A stretch of DNA of 64,000 bases from an uncultured Candidatus Puniceispirillum sp. (lineage in GTDB: Bacteria; Pseudomonadota; Alphaproteobacteria; Puniceispirillales; Puniceispirillaceae). Under the pieces are notes generated by a model that was not told the DNA's origin, did not search any database, and saw only the letters and a program-made list of their open reading frames with translations. The translations under genes were made by a program, and so were the position numbers. Below are positions 1 to 6,348 of this stretch, piece after piece. The first letter of the stretch is position 1; every line of letters begins with the position of its first letter. The stretch covers positions 124,001 through 188,000 of the forward strand of contig CAJJBY010000006.1 in the NCBI GenBank assembly GCA_905182545.1, in the 5' to 3' direction.

Positions 1-200
1 GGGTTCCTGAGCAGTGTTGGCAATGGCTTTGAACGCATTTCATCTGCCATTGTTGTAATTTCTTGCAATGCGGCGTCTGACAGTTTTACCGTCCAGTCAT
101 CTCTTTTCAAGTTTGACGCTAACCAGCCTCTGCCGGCAGCTGTAGGAATGTTTTCCAATTCGTTAAACGTTTCAGAGCTGAGGTCCATCACGCCATCCAT
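1..200 (-). CDS. N-terminal fragment of a TauD/TfdA-like dioxygenase (partial, runs off left edge)
   Basis: Reading the minus strand from ATG at 200, about 66 codons stay open to the window edge, with a strong GGAGG Shine-Dalgarno just upstream (about 206-210). The peptide has a GRGWLASNLKRDDW stretch followed by KLSDAALQEI. This resembles the N-terminus of proteins in the TauD/TfdA family of Fe(II)/2-oxoglutarate dioxygenases (a W...L..DDW..+LS.AAL.E pattern). The HxD...H metal site would lie beyond the edge, so the family call is a guess from a short segment; the reading frame itself is well supported. It lies in the accessory block left of the tRNA-Pro junction. Confidence 0.5.
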   Translation of the reverse strand, partial: MDGVMDLSSETFNELENIPTAAGRGWLASNLKRDDWTVKLSDAALQEITTMADEMRSKPLPTLLRN

Positions 201-540
201 TTCTTCCTCCCAACATATTTTTTGTTATTTAATTTTCAACCAACGACACCAAAAACATTGCCACAAAACAAGGCCAGCGCAAAGGCCGGCCAAGTTTAGG
301 AAGAAATTGCGCTAGGTTCAGCTGGTCAACAATCTTGAACTAGGGTAAACTTAGGATGAAAGATTGGCTTGCTTTGTTTCCACATCTTGCAAGAGTAATG
401 GCAGCCGTTTCTCAGATTTGAAAACGTTTATCTGACCGAATTCAAGGGTCATAGATAAAAGAAAATCATGCGAAGCTCGAAGAGAATTGGACTGTTTTTT
501 GCAGAAAGTTCAAGCTTAGCTGTGATTTTATTAAAAATTT
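201..540. other. intergenic region between divergent genes
   Basis: About 340 bases with no convincing reading frame. It separates the divergent genes at 1-200 (minus) and 541 (plus), so it should hold both promoters. It is AT-rich, mainly near 480-540. No clear stem-loop or repeat was seen. Confidence 0.5.
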
Positions 541-1650
541 ATGGAAAAAACACTCATGACAGTAATTAACAAGCGCTACCTAACGATATTGTTGTCTTTG
601 ATTATGATGGCCCTGACACACAATGCAAAAGCATTGATTGTGCCTGAAGACTGCAAGACGTCTGAAGAGACTGCTTTCTTTGCTCTGACTGCATTTGAAG
701 TGGAGTCATATATTCCGAGTGTGGATGAAGATGGCGTCCCTTATTTGAAGGGCGCTGCACTAGCAAACGCTGAAGTTAATCATTACCGCAACCAATACAA
801 GGATGCACCCCTGGTAAGGATGCCGATCGATCGCTACGCCTCACTGACGAGCAAAAGTCCAAACGCACTCAAAAATTTTGAGAGTCGGCTATTAATTGTT
901 GACCCAGAGTGCAACGAATTAAAACTCTTTTTTGGCAACTTAATTGGCACAAGCGAACTTAGCCTTAAAAACTATCTTCAAATGTTTGACGCAGCCGAAA
1001 GGTTAAATCACGTGCCACTTAGTGAATTTACTCAACAACGCGTGAGGTTGCGCCCGAAGTTGGTTGGACAAGTGATTGAAATTCTCAAGTCAGATCTTGC
1101 TTTTGACATTGCTCTTACAAAGCAAACTCTTGGTAGTGATTTTCTCAAAAATATGGGGGTTGAAAACCAAAACGACTTCTCGAAAGGAGGAGAGCTCGCT
1201 CTTTTATCATATGTGAAGAAAGGCGGTCGCATCAAAAACACTGAGAGCAATATAACGGCCTTCATTATTTTGCCAGCATCAAAAAAAGGCTTAGATGACA
1301 CGGATAAAACTGTGATGCTGCTATCTAGTGGTGTGGTGCATATTGTTTCCTCTTTGAACACGCCCCTAGCAAAATACGCATTAGGACAACTTGGAGTTCC
1401 AACTACCATTCTCAGAGTAGGTCGCCTTTTTGATGACAGCGGTCCTGTATGTTTATTGGACGAGGTTGGAAACTGGTACCGGATAATCAACGGGGGACGC
1501 ACCCGAAGCTGCAACTTTAATCAAGTTCTGATGCAAAGCCTCAAAAGTGACGGTTGGCGGAGTACCTTTGATAAACAATTGACACCAGTTTCATACCAAC
1601 AAATAAGTGACATAATGAAACAAAACGATATGCTAAAATTCATTTATTAA
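541..1650 (+). CDS. hypothetical secreted protein, 369 aa
   Basis: No family recognised. The N-terminus has a basic start (NKRY), a hydrophobic segment at about residues 13-27 and an AKA site near 31-32, which together look like a Sec signal peptide, so the product is probably periplasmic or exported. The mature part has no obvious transmembrane segment. Cys residues near 38, 121, 302 and 324 could form disulfides. Two in-frame ATG codons (541 and 556) are possible starts; neither has a good Shine-Dalgarno. The gene stands alone and is AT-richer than the core genes, in line with recent acquisition. Possible as an island cargo protein; function unknown. Confidence 0.65.
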   Translation: MEKTLMTVINKRYLTILLSLIMMALTHNAKALIVPEDCKTSEETAFFALTAFEVESYIPSVDEDGVPYLKGAALANAEVNHYRNQYKDAPLVRMPIDRYASLTSKSPNALKNFESRLLIVDPECNELKLFFGNLIGTSELSLKNYLQMFDAAERLNHVPLSEFTQQRVRLRPKLVGQVIEILKSDLAFDIALTKQTLGSDFLKNMGVENQNDFSKGGELALLSYVKKGGRIKNTESNITAFIILPASKKGLDDTDKTVMLLSSGVVHIVSSLNTPLAKYALGQLGVPTTILRVGRLFDDSGPVCLLDEVGNWYRIINGGRTRSCNFNQVLMQSLKSDGWRSTFDKQLTPVSYQQISDIMKQNDMLKFIY

Positions 1651-1964
1651 AGCTGTTAAATATTTTAGTCATCTATACAGAGTTGCTGAGCGGCAAGTCG
1701 AATGTACGACTATTTGTACAAACGCAGCGCCTGATCAGCTGATACCCCCCCCCATCGAAATCACGGACGGGCGCGGTTTGTGTGATGCGTAATTGCTTCA
1801 GGGCAGCCAAGCGACGCAATATAATAGGGCCGTCCATATACTGTTATATAAAAGATATAATAATTGTTATGAGAGTGGACGGCCTAGAATAGCTCGGTGT
1901 TGGTTGATGTTTGGTTAGGTTCGTCTTTAAACTATATTGATCAAGTTTGACGCGGGGTAACACT
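1651..1964. other. intergenic region with poly-C tract and inverted repeat
   Basis: About 310 bases. It contains a run of nine C at 1745-1753 and a long-armed inverted repeat (1828-1884). A 54-codon open frame on the minus strand (1837 to 1673) starts inside the left repeat arm and reads the C run as glycine, but has no Shine-Dalgarno, so I do not call it a gene. The TPR gene promoter should lie at the right end. Confidence 0.5.
1828..1884. repeat. inverted repeat, 9-bp arms (GGCCGTCCA / TGGACGGCC)
   Basis: Arms at 1828-1836 and 1876-1884 are perfect reverse complements separated by 39 very AT-rich bases. There is no T run after the right arm, so it is not a standard intrinsic terminator. 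It could be a small mobile-element remnant or an operator-like site upstream of the TPR gene. Only the pairing is seen; the role is unknown. Confidence 0.5.
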
Positions 1965-3242
1965 ATGCTTGAAGATAGCTACGGAAACAAGATCTCGACG
2001 AATTCAGCTGATGCTATTGCGTCATACAACCAAGGAGTCCATCAATTTCTTGGCGCTGAGCCAAACGTTGAGGCCAGTTTCAAAGCCGCAATAAGCGCTG
2101 ATCCAAAATTTACTTTGGCGCATGTTGGGCTTGCTCGAGAGATGCAATTGCGTGGTCGATCGGGTGGTGTGAAACAATCCCTCAATAAGGCCTTTGAAAC
2201 TAGCAAAAATCTATCGGCTCGAGAACAATCCCACTTGAGTGTGTCGAGCTTACTACTCAGGGGAAAGTCTGCTGAAGCTCGCGCGGCTGTATATGAACAT
2301 GTGAAAGAATGGCCTCGTGACGTACTCATCGCGCAGATGTGTACCAGTGTCTTTGGCCTGATTGGTTTCTCTGGTTTGCCCGGCAGGGAGGCTGAACAGC
2401 TGTCTTTCATGACGAACCTTACCCCCAATTATGGGGATGACTGGTGGTGCAAAGCTCAGTTAGCATTTGCGCAGCTTGAAGTTGGGCAATTGGATGAGGC
2501 TGGCATTAACATTGAAGAGGCACTCCTATCGAACCCGAATAGCGCACATTCAAAGCATATTAGAGCGCACCTCTATTATGAAAATCTGCAGGACGAAGAT
2601 GGCTTGAGCTACCTCCAAAGGCATTGGGAAAATTATGATCCGTCAGGTGCGCTCTACAACCATATCTCGTGGCATGTGGGTTTATGGTCTCTTGAGACTG
2701 GAAATCTCGAGCAAATGTGGAACGTTTTGGACAAGCACATTTCCCCTGATAATAGTCAAGGTCCTCCATTGAATGTTTTGACTGACACTGCAGCTCTGCT
2801 TTTCAGAGCGGAGCTTGCAGGGGTTGAAGTCACACCCGAAAGGTGGAGAGGCCTCAGTGCATACGCTATGACTAAATTTGCCAATCCGGGCCTTGGCTTT
2901 GCTGATTTTCACGCCGCAATTACGCACGCCCGAGCAGGTAACATTGAAGCATTGGAAAATATAATAGCTAATGCAAAAGGACCCGTTTCTGACTTAACCA
3001 AAAAAGTTGCGAGGGCATACCTTTATATGCAAGGCGCTAACTGGCTATCAGCTTCTGAACTCTTTACGAGCGTCGTGCGTGAACATGCTCGTTTTGGCGG
3101 ATCAAACGCCCAGAGAGATTTATTGGACTTTTCTTTGGCTGCATGTCTGATCCATCAGGGCAGAACGCGGGAAGCAAAAACAATTCTTGCAATCACCAGA
3201 CCGCGGGCTTTGCAAAAAGATATTATCTCGGGTTTACATTGA
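1965..3242 (+). CDS. TPR protein of the TTC38-like family
   Basis: About 425 aa from ATG 1965; a TTG six codons upstream is open too, but ATG 1965 has GGGG about 8 bases before it. The chain is built of helical pairs with TPR-type spacing, for example ASFKAAISADPKFTLAHVGL near the N-terminus and AQLEVGQLDEAGINIEEALL near 175-195. The segment NHISWHVGLWSLETGN (around 235) matches the signature of the tetratricopeptide repeat protein 38 family, found in bacteria and eukaryotes and of unknown biochemical role. No signal peptide, so probably cytoplasmic. It sits alone in the accessory block. Confidence 0.7.
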   Translation: MLEDSYGNKISTNSADAIASYNQGVHQFLGAEPNVEASFKAAISADPKFTLAHVGLAREMQLRGRSGGVKQSLNKAFETSKNLSAREQSHLSVSSLLLRGKSAEARAAVYEHVKEWPRDVLIAQMCTSVFGLIGFSGLPGREAEQLSFMTNLTPNYGDDWWCKAQLAFAQLEVGQLDEAGINIEEALLSNPNSAHSKHIRAHLYYENLQDEDGLSYLQRHWENYDPSGALYNHISWHVGLWSLETGNLEQMWNVLDKHISPDNSQGPPLNVLTDTAALLFRAELAGVEVTPERWRGLSAYAMTKFANPGLGFADFHAAITHARAGNIEALENIIANAKGPVSDLTKKVARAYLYMQGANWLSASELFTSVVREHARFGGSNAQRDLLDFSLAACLIHQGRTREAKTILAITRPRALQKDIISGLH

Positions 3243-3339
3243 ACGCAGATTGCTTCGTTTGTGGAGATAGTAAATGCCACGTTTGCGGTGTAGGAAAGAT
3301 GCAGATACATCCGTCACGATAATAGAGGGGACAGGATAA

Positions 3340-3714
3340 ATGGACAAAGATAGGCTTTATGGGAACTGTCATTGTGGAACGGTGCAGTTCTCTATCCCAC
3401 GCAGTCTTGATACGAGCTCTGTCCGACGCTGTGATTGCAGCCTCTGCAAGCGTCGCGGTGCGGTTATGTTGGCATGCCCAATTGAAGATGTAAAAATTGA
3501 AAACGGCGCTGAACATCTACTCCATTACAAGTGGAATACAAAAGTTGCCACGCACCACTTTTGCTCAAAGTGTGGGATTATGACCCACCATCAAAGGCGC
3601 ACTACTCCAGAAATTTGTGGTATCAATATCGGCTGCATCGATGAACTTGACTATCGCAGTTTTCAGGACGTGCCAATGAACAATGGCGTCGATCTAGCGC
3701 TAGTAGAAAAGTAG
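3340..3714 (+). CDS. GFA/CENP-V domain protein (glutathione-dependent formaldehyde-activating enzyme-like), 124 aa
   Basis: A short single-domain protein with the zinc-binding cysteines of the GFA family in order: CHCGTVQF (about residues 7-14), CDCSLCKRRG (about 31-40) and FCSKCG (about 71-76). The family binds zinc through these pairs; some members act on S-hydroxymethyl-glutathione but most are uncharacterised, so enzymatic function should not be assumed. Start ATG 3340 has AGGATAA just upstream. A second, more typical GFA protein lies at 6465-6908 on the other side of the tRNA-Pro junction; the two are clearly diverged and not a recent duplication. Confidence 0.8.
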   Translation: MDKDRLYGNCHCGTVQFSIPRSLDTSSVRRCDCSLCKRRGAVMLACPIEDVKIENGAEHLLHYKWNTKVATHHFCSKCGIMTHHQRRTTPEICGINIGCIDELDYRSFQDVPMNNGVDLALVEK

Positions 3715-3746
3715 CCAACCACTGGCTCGGCACTTCAGCTTAAACC

Positions 3747-4059
3747 TCAAATTTGTATTTCATTGCGTTTGGAGAGAATGCTCTCATTCACCACCCTCAG
3801 AGCGTCCAAATAGCTACCCTTAGCCGCCAGTAACTGCTTCCACCTTTTGGCCTTTCCCGAACCGCGGTCTATAGCAGCGCCTGAGCCGCCGTTCCGCGAA
3901 CACGCTCGTCCTTGCCGTGCCGCATCAACTCAACCAGCGTGTCTATAGCCTCAACCGTATATGAGCGAGCCAGTTCAGCGACGCTGTGTTCGTCCCTTGG
4001 GCGACCAACGGGGTTGCCCAATTGACCGGGTGCGAATTGCTCTGATTTCAGCCGAGTTT
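3747..4059 (-). pseudogene. decayed phage-type gene (DUF5681 / terminase-small-like)
   Basis: On the minus strand the translation runs FAPGQLGNPVGRPRDEHS, then AELARSYTVEAIDTLVELM, then RGTAAQALL before a frameshift with stop near 3869-3872. It resumes in another frame as DRGSGKAKRWKQLLAAKGSY and LDALRVV. The GQxGNPxGRP opening followed by a helical A.TVEAIDTLVELM segment and a DRG.GKA stretch is what is seen in phage-associated DUF5681/terminase-small-like proteins. There is no start codon in frame and at least one frameshift, so it is a remnant. A second diverged copy of its 3' end lies inverted at 4139-4249. Confidence 0.6.
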
Positions 4060-4138
4060 TTTGGATGGTTTACATAGGGGGATCATAGCATTAGCAGATG
4101 AAGGGAGTAAGAGGGGCAATCCCAGATCCGCCCCATAG

Positions 4139-4249
4139 CAGCCTGCGCGTTACCACAGCAAACCTTGGCCGTGGTTGTGGCAAGACCCGAAGGTTGAGGT
4201 GGTTACAGGTGCTCAGGGCAGCTATTTGGATGCGCTGAGGATGGTGTGA
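4139..4249 (+). pseudogene. 3' fragment of a second copy of the DUF5681-like gene, inverted
   Basis: The plus strand encodes PKVEVVTGAQGSYLDALRMV and then a stop (4247-4249). This matches, over about 70 bp, the 3' end of the remnant at 3747-4059 on the opposite strand (the GSYLDALR segment is shared). An in-frame stop at 4136-4138 cuts it off from any start. It looks like a relic of a rearranged prophage or island module. Confidence 0.5.
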
Positions 4250-4346
4250 ACAGTTACAGCTCAAGAGGGTTGATGATTGACCTGAAAACAGAAGATTTTC
4301 AGGATTTTTAATGATTTTGGCGCTGATCAAGTTTGCCTAACATCGG

Positions 4347-4748
4347 CTAGCTATTGTCGATGGACTTATAAATATTTAGTTCTCTCCAGTATTTTTCTGC
4401 AAGCGTATTTGCGTCACTTATCCTCAAAGCAAGCCCTCGAATGATTGCATTGCATATTGGGTCAGCTTGAGCCATTTTTGCCCGAAATACCGGCTCATCC
4501 AGTTTGATGAGCATTGCGTTGGTCTTTGCTTTAACAGTCACAGTCCTTGGTTCTGAGGTGACGAGGCCAACTTCGCCAAACAATTCACCCTCGTTTAGAA
4601 CGCCAAGGACCATTCCCTGTTTGCTTTCTATCTGAACGGAACCACTATGCACTAAATAGACGCTATCACTTGCATCATTGACGCTGTATATGACATCGCC
4701 TGCCCTAACTGCTATCTTGGCGAAACTTTTTAAATTTATCGGTTTCAT
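4347..4748 (-). CDS. stand-alone cyclic-nucleotide-binding domain protein, 133 aa
   Basis: One cNMP-binding beta-roll fills the protein. VYLVHSGSVQI, the phosphate-binding-cassette-like GELFGEVGLVTSEPRTVTVKA (residues about 69-90), and a C-terminal helix are visible. The FGE and PRT residues are those that contact the cyclic phosphate and ribose in this fold. No DNA-binding helix-turn-helix follows, unlike CRP/FNR regulators, so it may act as a small sensor for a partner. Start ATG 4748 is preferred over ATG 4763 because the codons between them (GGAGGAAAACTA) are a strong Shine-Dalgarno. It is in the accessory block with no obvious effector gene beside it. Confidence 0.75.
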   Translation of the reverse strand: MKPINLKSFAKIAVRAGDVIYSVNDASDSVYLVHSGSVQIESKQGMVLGVLNEGELFGEVGLVTSEPRTVTVKAKTNAMLIKLDEPVFRAKMAQADPICNAIIRGLALRISDANTLAEKYWRELNIYKSIDNS

Positions 4749-4813
4749 TAGTTTTCCTCCCATCAGCTATCCTGTCACATAAAGCGACTGGCGCAAATGC
4801 TGGTTTGTTCTGT

Positions 4814-4999
4814 TTAAGTTAAGCTTATTGGCTCGCTCTCAAAGCCGCTATTGACTGCTTCGCCGCTGAAACGCCGCTTAAGGCGGGTTGTCCGGATGCC
4901 GTCAGGTGTTTTCTCTAAAGTCACCAGTTCCTGCTTGAGGACGCCATTTGGCGCTGGGTTGGTCTTGTTGTTGTATAGGAAAGTGTGGTGCGCAGTCAT
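4814..4999 (-). CDS. small hypothetical protein, 61 aa
   Basis: No family recognised. It is called because ATG 4999 has a GGAGG Shine-Dalgarno about 8 bases upstream and the frame runs cleanly to a TAA at 4814. The product is polar with a basic centre (RTTRLKRRF) and an acidic, Ser-rich C-terminus; no signal peptide or membrane helix. It is divergent to the secreted protein at 5204. Confidence 0.45.
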   Translation of the reverse strand: MTAHHTFLYNNKTNPAPNGVLKQELVTLEKTPDGIRTTRLKRRFSGEAVNSGFESEPISLT

Positions 5000-5203
5000 A
5001 ACGCTATCCTCCGCTTTAGTGCTTTAGGCAGGAAGCCAAGGAGAACAAGCTGGAAGTTAAACACCTATAACCAATTTGGTGAGGATTTTGTTTGCTTGTC
5101 AAATTGCAATCAACTCATTAAAGCAATAAATAGAGGTGAGCACGTTATTGAAATGCGCCTAGCTTCAGTTTTTTATGGCTACTTGATGTATTGGAGGTTG
5201 AAC

Positions 5204-5608
5204 ATGAGGGTGACTAAATTTTTGATAGGCTTTTCCCTAGTATTCTCATTTCAGGCTCAACCGTCTTTTGCTGACGAGGAAATCATCTGCAGAGTAAAAG
5301 GCTCCGGACAAAAGGTTTTTCGTCTCGATAGCGGTATTTTCTCATCCAGCGTTTTGATTATGAATAGTTCTGGCCAATTTGTTGATTGGTGTCCGGAGAC
5401 AGACTCGCAAAAGCCGTCATTTGGCCGGGATACTGCGATTTGTAAATTTTCTGGTAAACGTTTAGGAAACAAACTTGCTTGGGGCGAGACTGTAATCGAT
5501 TTTGCTCAACCGTCTTGGAAAAGGCGCTATCGTTTCGCTAAACTAGGCCAGACTTGGAAAGAGTCTCAGCCCGGTGGCAGGGAAAGAGCGACCTGCAAGT
5601 TGAGGTAG
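5204..5608 (+). CDS. small secreted hypothetical protein, 134 aa
   Basis: ATG 5204 has GGAGG six bases upstream, so this start is preferred over an open but unsupported extension back to 4985. Residues 1-24 form a clear Sec signal peptide with a likely cut after SFA. The mature protein is about 110 aa with four cysteines (in IICRV, DWCPE, AICKF and ATCKL) that could make two disulfides in the periplasm. No known family recognised. An intrinsic terminator follows at once. It is the last gene before the tRNA-Pro junction and likely island cargo. Confidence 0.65.
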   Translation: MRVTKFLIGFSLVFSFQAQPSFADEEIICRVKGSGQKVFRLDSGIFSSSVLIMNSSGQFVDWCPETDSQKPSFGRDTAICKFSGKRLGNKLAWGETVIDFAQPSWKRRYRFAKLGQTWKESQPGGRERATCKLR

Positions 5609-5630
5609 CCCTCAAAGCAGGGCTTTTTCT
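5607..5630 (+). terminator. intrinsic terminator after the secreted protein gene
   Basis: Stem AGCCCT (5607-5612) / AGGGCT (5619-5624), loop CAAAGC, followed by a T run from 5624. It overlaps the stop codon of the gene ending at 5608. Confidence 0.75.
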
Positions 5631-5707
5631 GGTTGGTGTGGACATATCGTAGACACAATCTTATTTCAAGCGCTCAACTCATATATAAGTTAATATGTTT
5701 CAGCATA

Positions 5708-5784
5708 TTAATTGTAGCGCAGCCTGGTAGCGCACTATACTGGGGGTGTAGGGGTCGTGGGTTCGAATCCCGCCGCTCCAACTA
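5708..5784 (+). tRNA. tRNA-Pro(GGG)-like, with unpaired 5' acceptor strand (probable island junction)
   Basis: D arm GCGC...GCGC (5717-5733), anticodon stem CTATA/TGTAG around loop CTGGGGG (anticodon GGG at 5742-5744), variable GGGTC, T arm GTGGG-TTCGAAT-CCCGC (5757-5773) and 3' acceptor CGCTCCA with discriminator A fit tRNA-Pro. The 3' end reads CTA, not CCA. The expected 5' acceptor strand would be TGGAGCG, but 5708-5714 reads TTAATTG, which pairs at only a few positions. The homology therefore begins at about position 8 of the tRNA. Such a piece is what remains at the far end of an element integrated in a tRNA gene. It may not be functional. Confidence 0.7.
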
Positions 5785-5877
5785 TTTTTCATTTAAATGA
5801 TTGTTGATCGACAGGCCAGCAGGCAATATGGCTTGATTGCCGGTTATTGGTGCTGGTTATTGGTTATGGGGCATGAA

Positions 5878-6348
5878 ATGACACTAAATATGCGTGATGT
5901 TCATGTCCGCAAAATGCAAAACGCTGATTTACCTGGCATTCTGCAATTATTGGCTGACGATGAATTAGGGCAATTGCGCGAAATGCTGCAAGTGACTCCG
6001 CATGATGATTATCTGCGTGCCTTTACCGCCATTGATGCTGATCCTAATCAATATCTGGCGGTGTTTGAAAAGAATGATGACATCATCGGCTGTTTGCAAA
6101 TTTCATTCATTCCGGGCCTGTCGCGCCGCGGTGCATTGCGCGGCCAGATCGAATCGGTGCGGGTTGCCGCAAATGTCCGTGGCAATGGCTATGGAACGCT
6201 TATGATGGCATGGGCAATCAAAAAATGCCGCGAACAGGGATGCTCATTGGTGCAATTGACAAGCGACAAGACCCGCAAAGACGCCCAACGGTTTTATCAA
6301 GAGCTTGGTTTTGTGCCATCGCATGAAGGGTTTAAGCTTCAGTTTTAA
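5878..6348 (+). CDS. GNAT family N-acetyltransferase, about 156 aa
   Basis: Single GNAT fold. The acetyl-CoA pyrophosphate-binding motif VRGNGYGTLMMAWAI (R/Q-x-x-G-x-G/A type) sits in the middle, preceded by the beta strand IESVRVAANVRG and followed by the C-terminal segment KDAQRFYQELGF typical of the family. Substrate cannot be told from sequence. Several in-frame ATGs exist (5866, 5878, 5890); 5878 is chosen for the GGGG about 6 bases upstream and for fit to the family's start. First gene right of the tRNA-Pro junction. Confidence 0.8.
   Translation: MTLNMRDVHVRKMQNADLPGILQLLADDELGQLREMLQVTPHDDYLRAFTAIDADPNQYLAVFEKNDDIIGCLQISFIPGLSRRGALRGQIESVRVAANVRGNGYGTLMMAWAIKKCREQGCSLVQLTSDKTRKDAQRFYQELGFVPSHEGFKLQF

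Follow-up and report, generated by a model that had tools for sequence, protein, structure and literature searches.

The window analyzed here, a stretch of 64,000 nucleotides from an uncultured Candidatus Puniceispirillum sp. (G000:C6:124001-188000), belongs to a 2.0-Mb draft genome of 13 contigs, referred to as G000. An incomplete copy of tRNA-Pro(GGG) lies near its left end, at 5714..5784 on the forward strand, and is read below as the right end of a genomic island. This copy corresponds to positions 7-77 of the tRNA, with 2 substitutions in 71 bases with respect to the intact copy of the same genome. The D, anticodon and T arms are intact, but the acceptor 5' strand is missing, the preceding six bases (TTAATT) being unrelated to those of the intact gene (CGGAGC), and CCA has become CTA (3' end CGCTCCAACTA, compared with CGCTCCGACCA in the intact gene). 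ARAGORN called a tRNA-Pro(ggg) at 5713-5782, and the fragment covered only positions 6-65 of the 71 of the Rfam tRNA model, with 37.3 bits, compared with 58.1 bits for the intact gene. An initial annotation of the window had described a partial tRNA-Pro(GGG) without 5' acceptor strand and with a CTA end at 5708-5784; the sequence, ARAGORN, Rfam and BLAST all bear this out, and the coordinates were correct within a few bases. Since both ARAGORN and Rfam call the fragment a tRNA, annotation alone would overlook the island, whose exact borders were obtained here. A caution about the mis-annotation of tRNA fragments as tRNAs is given in an excerpt of PMC9897764.

The search of G000 gave 31 tRNA matches, 30 of them with loci read by ARAGORN, and a single intact tRNA-Pro(GGG) was found, at G000:C6:119494-119570 (window -4506 to -4430), on the same strand as the fragment. 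The initial annotation had predicted such a gene to the left in the same orientation, and the tRNA search, ARAGORN and BLAST placed it 10,143 bp away (L039 7571-17713 in the window genome). Had the fragment been the only tRNA-Pro(GGG) of the genome, the prediction would have been refuted on terms set in advance; it is not the only one. BLAST aligned the two copies over 69 bp (99%, 121 bits); the runner-up anywhere in the genome reached 39 bits, so the repeat is far above chance. The locus thus has the two marks of a tRNA-targeted island, an intact target at one end and a displaced 3' fragment in the same orientation at the other. The GC content in 1-kb windows was 0.41-0.49 in the island, mostly 0.47-0.52 in the left flank and 0.46-0.48 in the right flank, the contrast being clear on the left side only. 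Neither a tRNA-Phe nor any tRNA-Pro except GGG was among the 31 matches, and these absences are probably assembly gaps.

The comparison with related genomes that the initial annotation had proposed revealed an uninterrupted site in one congener, on contig DFSK01000027.1 of "Alphaproteobacteria bacterium UBA3439" (L112, coordinates as G003:C92), in which both flanks adjoin around a single tRNA. The host group is taken to be the SAR116 clade; the NCBI taxonomy for UBA3439 stops at Alphaproteobacteria. The alignment of the left flank runs through the tRNA to its end (L039 6680-7570 to L112 1182-2072, 90.4%) and that of the right flank starts at the fragment (L039 17714-19000 to L112 2002-3275, 86.3%), the two overlapping in L112 in the tRNA alone. 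Therefore, the fragment at the right runs on without a break into the sequence that originally followed the tRNA; the GNAT acetyltransferase gene of the right flank (5797..6348, forward strand) is located directly after the tRNA in the empty site. The second refuting outcome named in advance, the same flanks in all relatives, was accordingly not observed, and what lies at the right is the end of the host gene, displaced by a tRNA-targeted island.

Considering the observed repeat, its orientation, the empty site and a left end of element type, the fragment is read, with a probability of about 0.9, as what was once the 3' part of the tRNA-Pro(GGG) gene of the host, moved to the far side of a 10.1-kb island when this island inserted into the gene by site-specific recombination. 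The incoming DNA would have brought its own tRNA 3' part and restored the gene at the left junction, and the 3' part of the host would have been pushed to the right junction, where selection would have been lost and 2 bases would have drifted. The recombination was presumably the work of a tyrosine integrase that acted near the anticodon loop; being absent now, this enzyme may have been lost, or a phage may have provided it in trans. Comparison has in this way confirmed a prediction that was derived from nothing but the sequence.

Fragments of the 3' part of tRNA-Pro were also found in relatives when 41 genomes were searched, namely in G002, G004, G006, G009, G011 (four), G013, G014 (three), G020 and G021. 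Setting aside the fragment of G009 (starting at 21), which is cut by a contig end, the 13 others begin at tRNA positions 14-39. The window fragment, starting at 7, is the longest at the tRNA-Pro site and longer than usual. These start positions suggest that the crossover takes place within or close to the anticodon stem-loop. A scheme of integration sublocations in tRNA genes was reportedly drawn up by Williams in 2002. The tRNA-Glu(TTC) gene behaves alike, the intact gene being followed by two fragments in G006 and by three in G014, with starts mostly at 25-32. A finished contig of G004 shows the textbook form (tRNA-Pro, internal integrase, fragment 21-77, then GNAT). In G005 the integrase beside the same tRNA is broken into two open reading frame (ORF) pieces, and 2,529 bp of the cargo of the window island lie downstream of tRNA-Pro at 85% identity. 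Gene content thus varies at the same tRNA among close relatives, with repeats of tRNA fragments, as in additive flexible islands. Two tRNA-Pro fragments on contig C34 of G014 (L134 7858-7902 and 19529-19573), about 11.7 kb apart, have 170 identical bp before them and 130 after them.

Sixteen chromosomal stretches with a tRNA copy on both sides were treated as modules (in G004, G006, G011, G013, G014 and G020); the tRNA-Pro module of G006, open at a contig break, is not among them. PF00589 was detected inside only two, G004-P and G011-P1. Relatives and viral contigs together mark this tRNA as an insertion hotspot, frequently occupied by gene blocks without an integrase. One unit of G006, 1,648 bp in length and flanked by a tRNA-Glu fragment on each side, has one intact ORF, whose 382-aa product is a serine hydrolase (PF00144). 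The left end of the window island matches this unit at 93% identity, with the frame broken. An intact 382-aa homologue occurs in G014 in a stretch ending at a tRNA-Pro fragment, so the same gene is found beside two tRNAs.

Many tRNA copies are followed by a terminator-like hairpin and then by short tandem repeats, and repeats also occur about 95-105 bp ahead of many fragments. The left-right arm scores within 18 modules (the 16 chromosomal ones plus L185 and L200, with G000 and L184, a near-duplicate of L185, left out) summed to 240.5, compared with 158.7 (s.d. 10.6) for permuted partners, a sum reached in 0 of 20,000 permutations. Six IMG/VR contigs carry a tRNA-Pro half and, no more than about 600 bp away, a tyrosine-integrase gene, five of these integrases being confirmed by Pfam and that of L184 by 92% identity to that of L185. 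The integrases of L200 and L211 are 55% identical, and the two sites are otherwise similar but carry TTTGGATAC- and TTTGGGGA-type repeats, respectively. Both arms scored above the shuffle maximum (12.5) for one viral contig in 5 of the 16 modules (G011-P2, -P3 and -P4 with L210; G013-P and G006-E2 with L200). The right-arm motif, with up to 3 mismatches, occurs at 10 places in the 41 genomes, six of them ahead of a tRNA fragment (G006, G013, G014), two in G010 not ahead of a fragment and two in G030 and G038. Several results weigh against pairing these repeats as arms: the own partner ranked first in only 7 of 20 cases, no convincing arm pair was seen in G011-P4, G014-P1, G014-P2, G013-E and others, 11 of the 16 modules did not have both arms matched to one viral contig, and the arms were noticed by eye before the test was devised. 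The L200 integrase, searched against the viral contigs, matched only itself. Viral contig L209 encodes a T7-type RNA polymerase, a primase-helicase and an integrase beside its tRNA-Pro half, this integrase being 44% identical to the island integrase of G004.

On the other side of the scale from the proposed island stand several points. The contiguous empty site was found in one genome only, both flank genes share a contig in just 2 of 15 congeners (adjacent in G003, about 14 kb apart in G004), and the state of L112 may reflect either insertion elsewhere or later excision. The integrase predicted to the left of the window was not borne out: PF00589 at E<=0.1 gave 6 matches in G000, none of them on contig C6, and tblastn of the tRNA-Pro-island integrases of G004 and G005 against the island gave a best E of 0.68. 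For lack of the integrase gene that the autonomous form carries, the island is classed only as integrase-less. No counterpart of the left arm is present at its right end, where the own pair scored 9.5 and ranked fifth of 20, and the draft assembly, in 13 contigs, shows a contamination of 4.48%. The draft state, together with several contigs of relatives that end at this tRNA, would fit an artefact of a metagenome-derived genome, but both junctions lie within one 280-kb contig, the right one continues into the flank as in L112, and G005 has homologous cargo downstream of the same tRNA, which makes an artefact very improbable. An old tandem duplication, with one copy now a pseudogene and ordinary genes between, would likewise account for two copies of tRNA-Pro(GGG) in one orientation; it is contradicted by the empty site and by the abrupt end of identity on both sides, and the variable cargo and extra fragments at this tRNA in relatives, as well as the same half on viral contigs, render it even harder to believe. 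Function as a split or permuted tRNA can be argued from the three intact arms of the fragment and from its acceptance by ARAGORN and Rfam; the probability is next to nil given the missing acceptor strand, the change from CCA to CTA and the intact copy with the same anticodon.

The island as an inserted element being preferred, its later history was reconstructed from its two ends. The left end is of the L211 type, with the terminator and TTTGGGGA repeats of the L211 attachment region (score 46.0, 0/300 shuffles), and the right end had no match among the viral contigs (best score 9.5). A possible right arm repeat (TGTGGACATATCGTAGACACAA; 5637..5658, forward strand) resembles the GTGTAGACA repeats that bound the G020 tRNA-Pro island on either side, scoring 13.5 with its left arm (0/300 dinucleotide shuffles) and 12.0 with its right arm (2/300); this likeness is suggestive only, because it was chosen as the best of many comparisons. 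Since the two ends seem to belong to different arm types, the present island is proposed, with slightly better than even odds, to be two neighboring elements fused by a deletion, in which the inner tRNA fragment and any integrase would have been lost. The main alternative, considered somewhat improbable, is one element from which the integrase and the right arm were lost, with no fusion. Integrase decay at the same tRNA does occur in G005, and the scores that point to another arm type on the right are weak (12.0 and 13.5). Nevertheless, the two ends of the island do not match each other, and in relatives pieces of its cargo are found in separate modules, the serine-hydrolase piece alone as the 1.65-kb unit of G006 and the genes for proteins of 65 and 207 aa beyond the last tRNA fragment in G013 and G014. 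Cis-mobilizable elements (CIMEs) are elements in which the recombination sites are kept and the enzyme is lost or borrowed. Of a CIME-like element mobilized in trans, paired att arms and no recombinase would be expected; the window island has no recombinase and a clear left arm, and its right arm does not pair with the left one.

The integrase-less modules are the interesting part of the finding. Tentatively, and with the balance leaning slightly against it, tRNA-Pro(GGG) and tRNA-Glu(TTC) of this marine alphaproteobacterial genus may host tandem arrays of small cassettes that have no integrase but complete temperate-phage attachment arms (terminator, repeats, tRNA half, repeats) and that are putatively moved by the integrase of a co-resident phage. 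Such cassettes would be a tyrosine-integrase counterpart of clusters of attC sites lacking integron integrases (CALINs) and of miniature inverted-repeat transposable elements (MITEs), one and the same cargo gene occurring with either of two arm types and beside either of two tRNAs, and the window island would be a fused relic of two of them. The acquisition of single genes by streamlined marine bacteria could be tested with this wider pattern: should a cassette with phage arms and no integrase be moved by phages that share its arm type, then knowing the arm sequence would be enough to predict which phage moves which gene.

The island belongs to an already known type, as cassettes at tRNAs, repeats of tRNA ends and SAR116 phage attP sites have been described; the comparison below relies on excerpts of the papers named. 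With the tRNA-targeted islands of the Islander database (PMC4383910) it shares a regenerated tRNA at one end and a displaced fragment at the other, which mark the end points, and it differs from them in having no internal integrase gene. Cassettes at tRNAs with part of the tRNA repeated at the cassette end in Ca. Actinomarinales (PMC7771536), and islands with repeats of the tRNA-Lys end in Methylophilaceae (PMC10872708), are additive flexible islands whose content, as at the window site, varies between close relatives; unlike in those excerpts, matched arm repeats and the likeness to viral attachment regions were followed here. Tycheposons and marine phage satellites (PMC10872708, PMC11389934) are likewise tRNA-bounded, cargo-carrying and marine, but a tyrosine recombinase is among the components of the elements described, and none was found in the window island with PF00589. 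CALINs and MITEs (PMC11389934) are alike in that recombination sites are kept and the enzyme is lost or borrowed; CALINs involve attC sites and an integron integrase, in contrast to a tRNA half with phage-type arms and putative mobilization in trans here. SAR116 phages with an attP matching a host tRNA were inferred to integrate into tRNA genes of the clade (PMC3861242), the excerpts of which do not name tRNA-Pro(GGG) (0 occurrences of the term). No priority is claimed for integrase-less modules with phage arms.

The right-hand 5.7 kb of the island occupy window positions 1..5713, as delimited by the tRNA search and BLAST, and the other 4.4 kb (G000:C6:119571-124000) end at the intact tRNA. 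The island carries the PF00144 serine hydrolase (beta-lactamase family), broken into two parts that differ in frame, along with small ORFs and genes for a histone-deacetylase-family protein and a TauD-family dioxygenase. The cargo within the window comprises a 369-aa orphan without Pfam, NCBIfam or PADLOC match (541..1650, forward), and Pfam-assigned genes for a TPR-repeat protein of 431 aa (1947..3242, forward), a GFA-domain protein of 124 aa (3340..3714, forward) and a cyclic-nucleotide-binding-domain protein of 138 aa (4347..4763, reverse). A 207-aa ORF without match in the family searches follows (4985..5608, forward), and its true start is likely a later ATG with a signal-peptide-like beginning. 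The orphan, secreted and phage-relic genes that the initial annotation saw to the left stand in part: 2 of 10 island proteins have no Pfam match, but phage relics were not shown, because PHROGs gave a single weak match (E=0.047) for the 10 proteins. Phage structural or replication genes, as expected of a prophage, were therefore not detected among them. PADLOC matched only the cyclic-nucleotide-binding domain of one protein (TIR and Pycsar models), which was read as a shared domain and not as defence cargo.

Two of the PF00589 matches of G000 are located close to tRNA genes, one on contig C10 (with 4 stops) and one on C2. These integrase remnants (G000:C10:5670-6143 and C2:216238-216674, near tRNA-Arg(acg) and tRNA-Leu(taa)) are probably further decayed tRNA islands.

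Several smaller repeats were noted as well. The 630 bp at window 4314-4943, with the gene for the cyclic-nucleotide-binding protein, have a second copy at 99% identity near the left end of the contig (G000:C6:313-943), and homologous pieces of 460-470 bp occur at unrelated places in G004, G005, G007 and G009. Three pieces of 60-70 bp, RepA, RepB and RepC (window 251-323 and 5005-5068; L039 9207-9268), have many gene-spaced copies in relatives, and G004:C1:149466-153748 holds five copies of RepA and two of RepB. An integron reading of the three as attC sites was not preferred, as RepA has a terminator-like hairpin and none of the 41 genomes exceeded the cut-off of the integron integrase model TIGR02249 (0/41), so that neither an integron nor a CALIN was recognized. 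On visual inspection, RepA and RepB resemble the conserved ends of genes that are small and occur in multiple copies, and the three pieces are probably such ends with a shared terminator. Finally, an inverted repeat at window 3789-3824/4211-4246 (36 nt with 86% complementarity and a spacing of 386 nt, or about 78 nt with 76% when extended) is perhaps a decayed mobile element.
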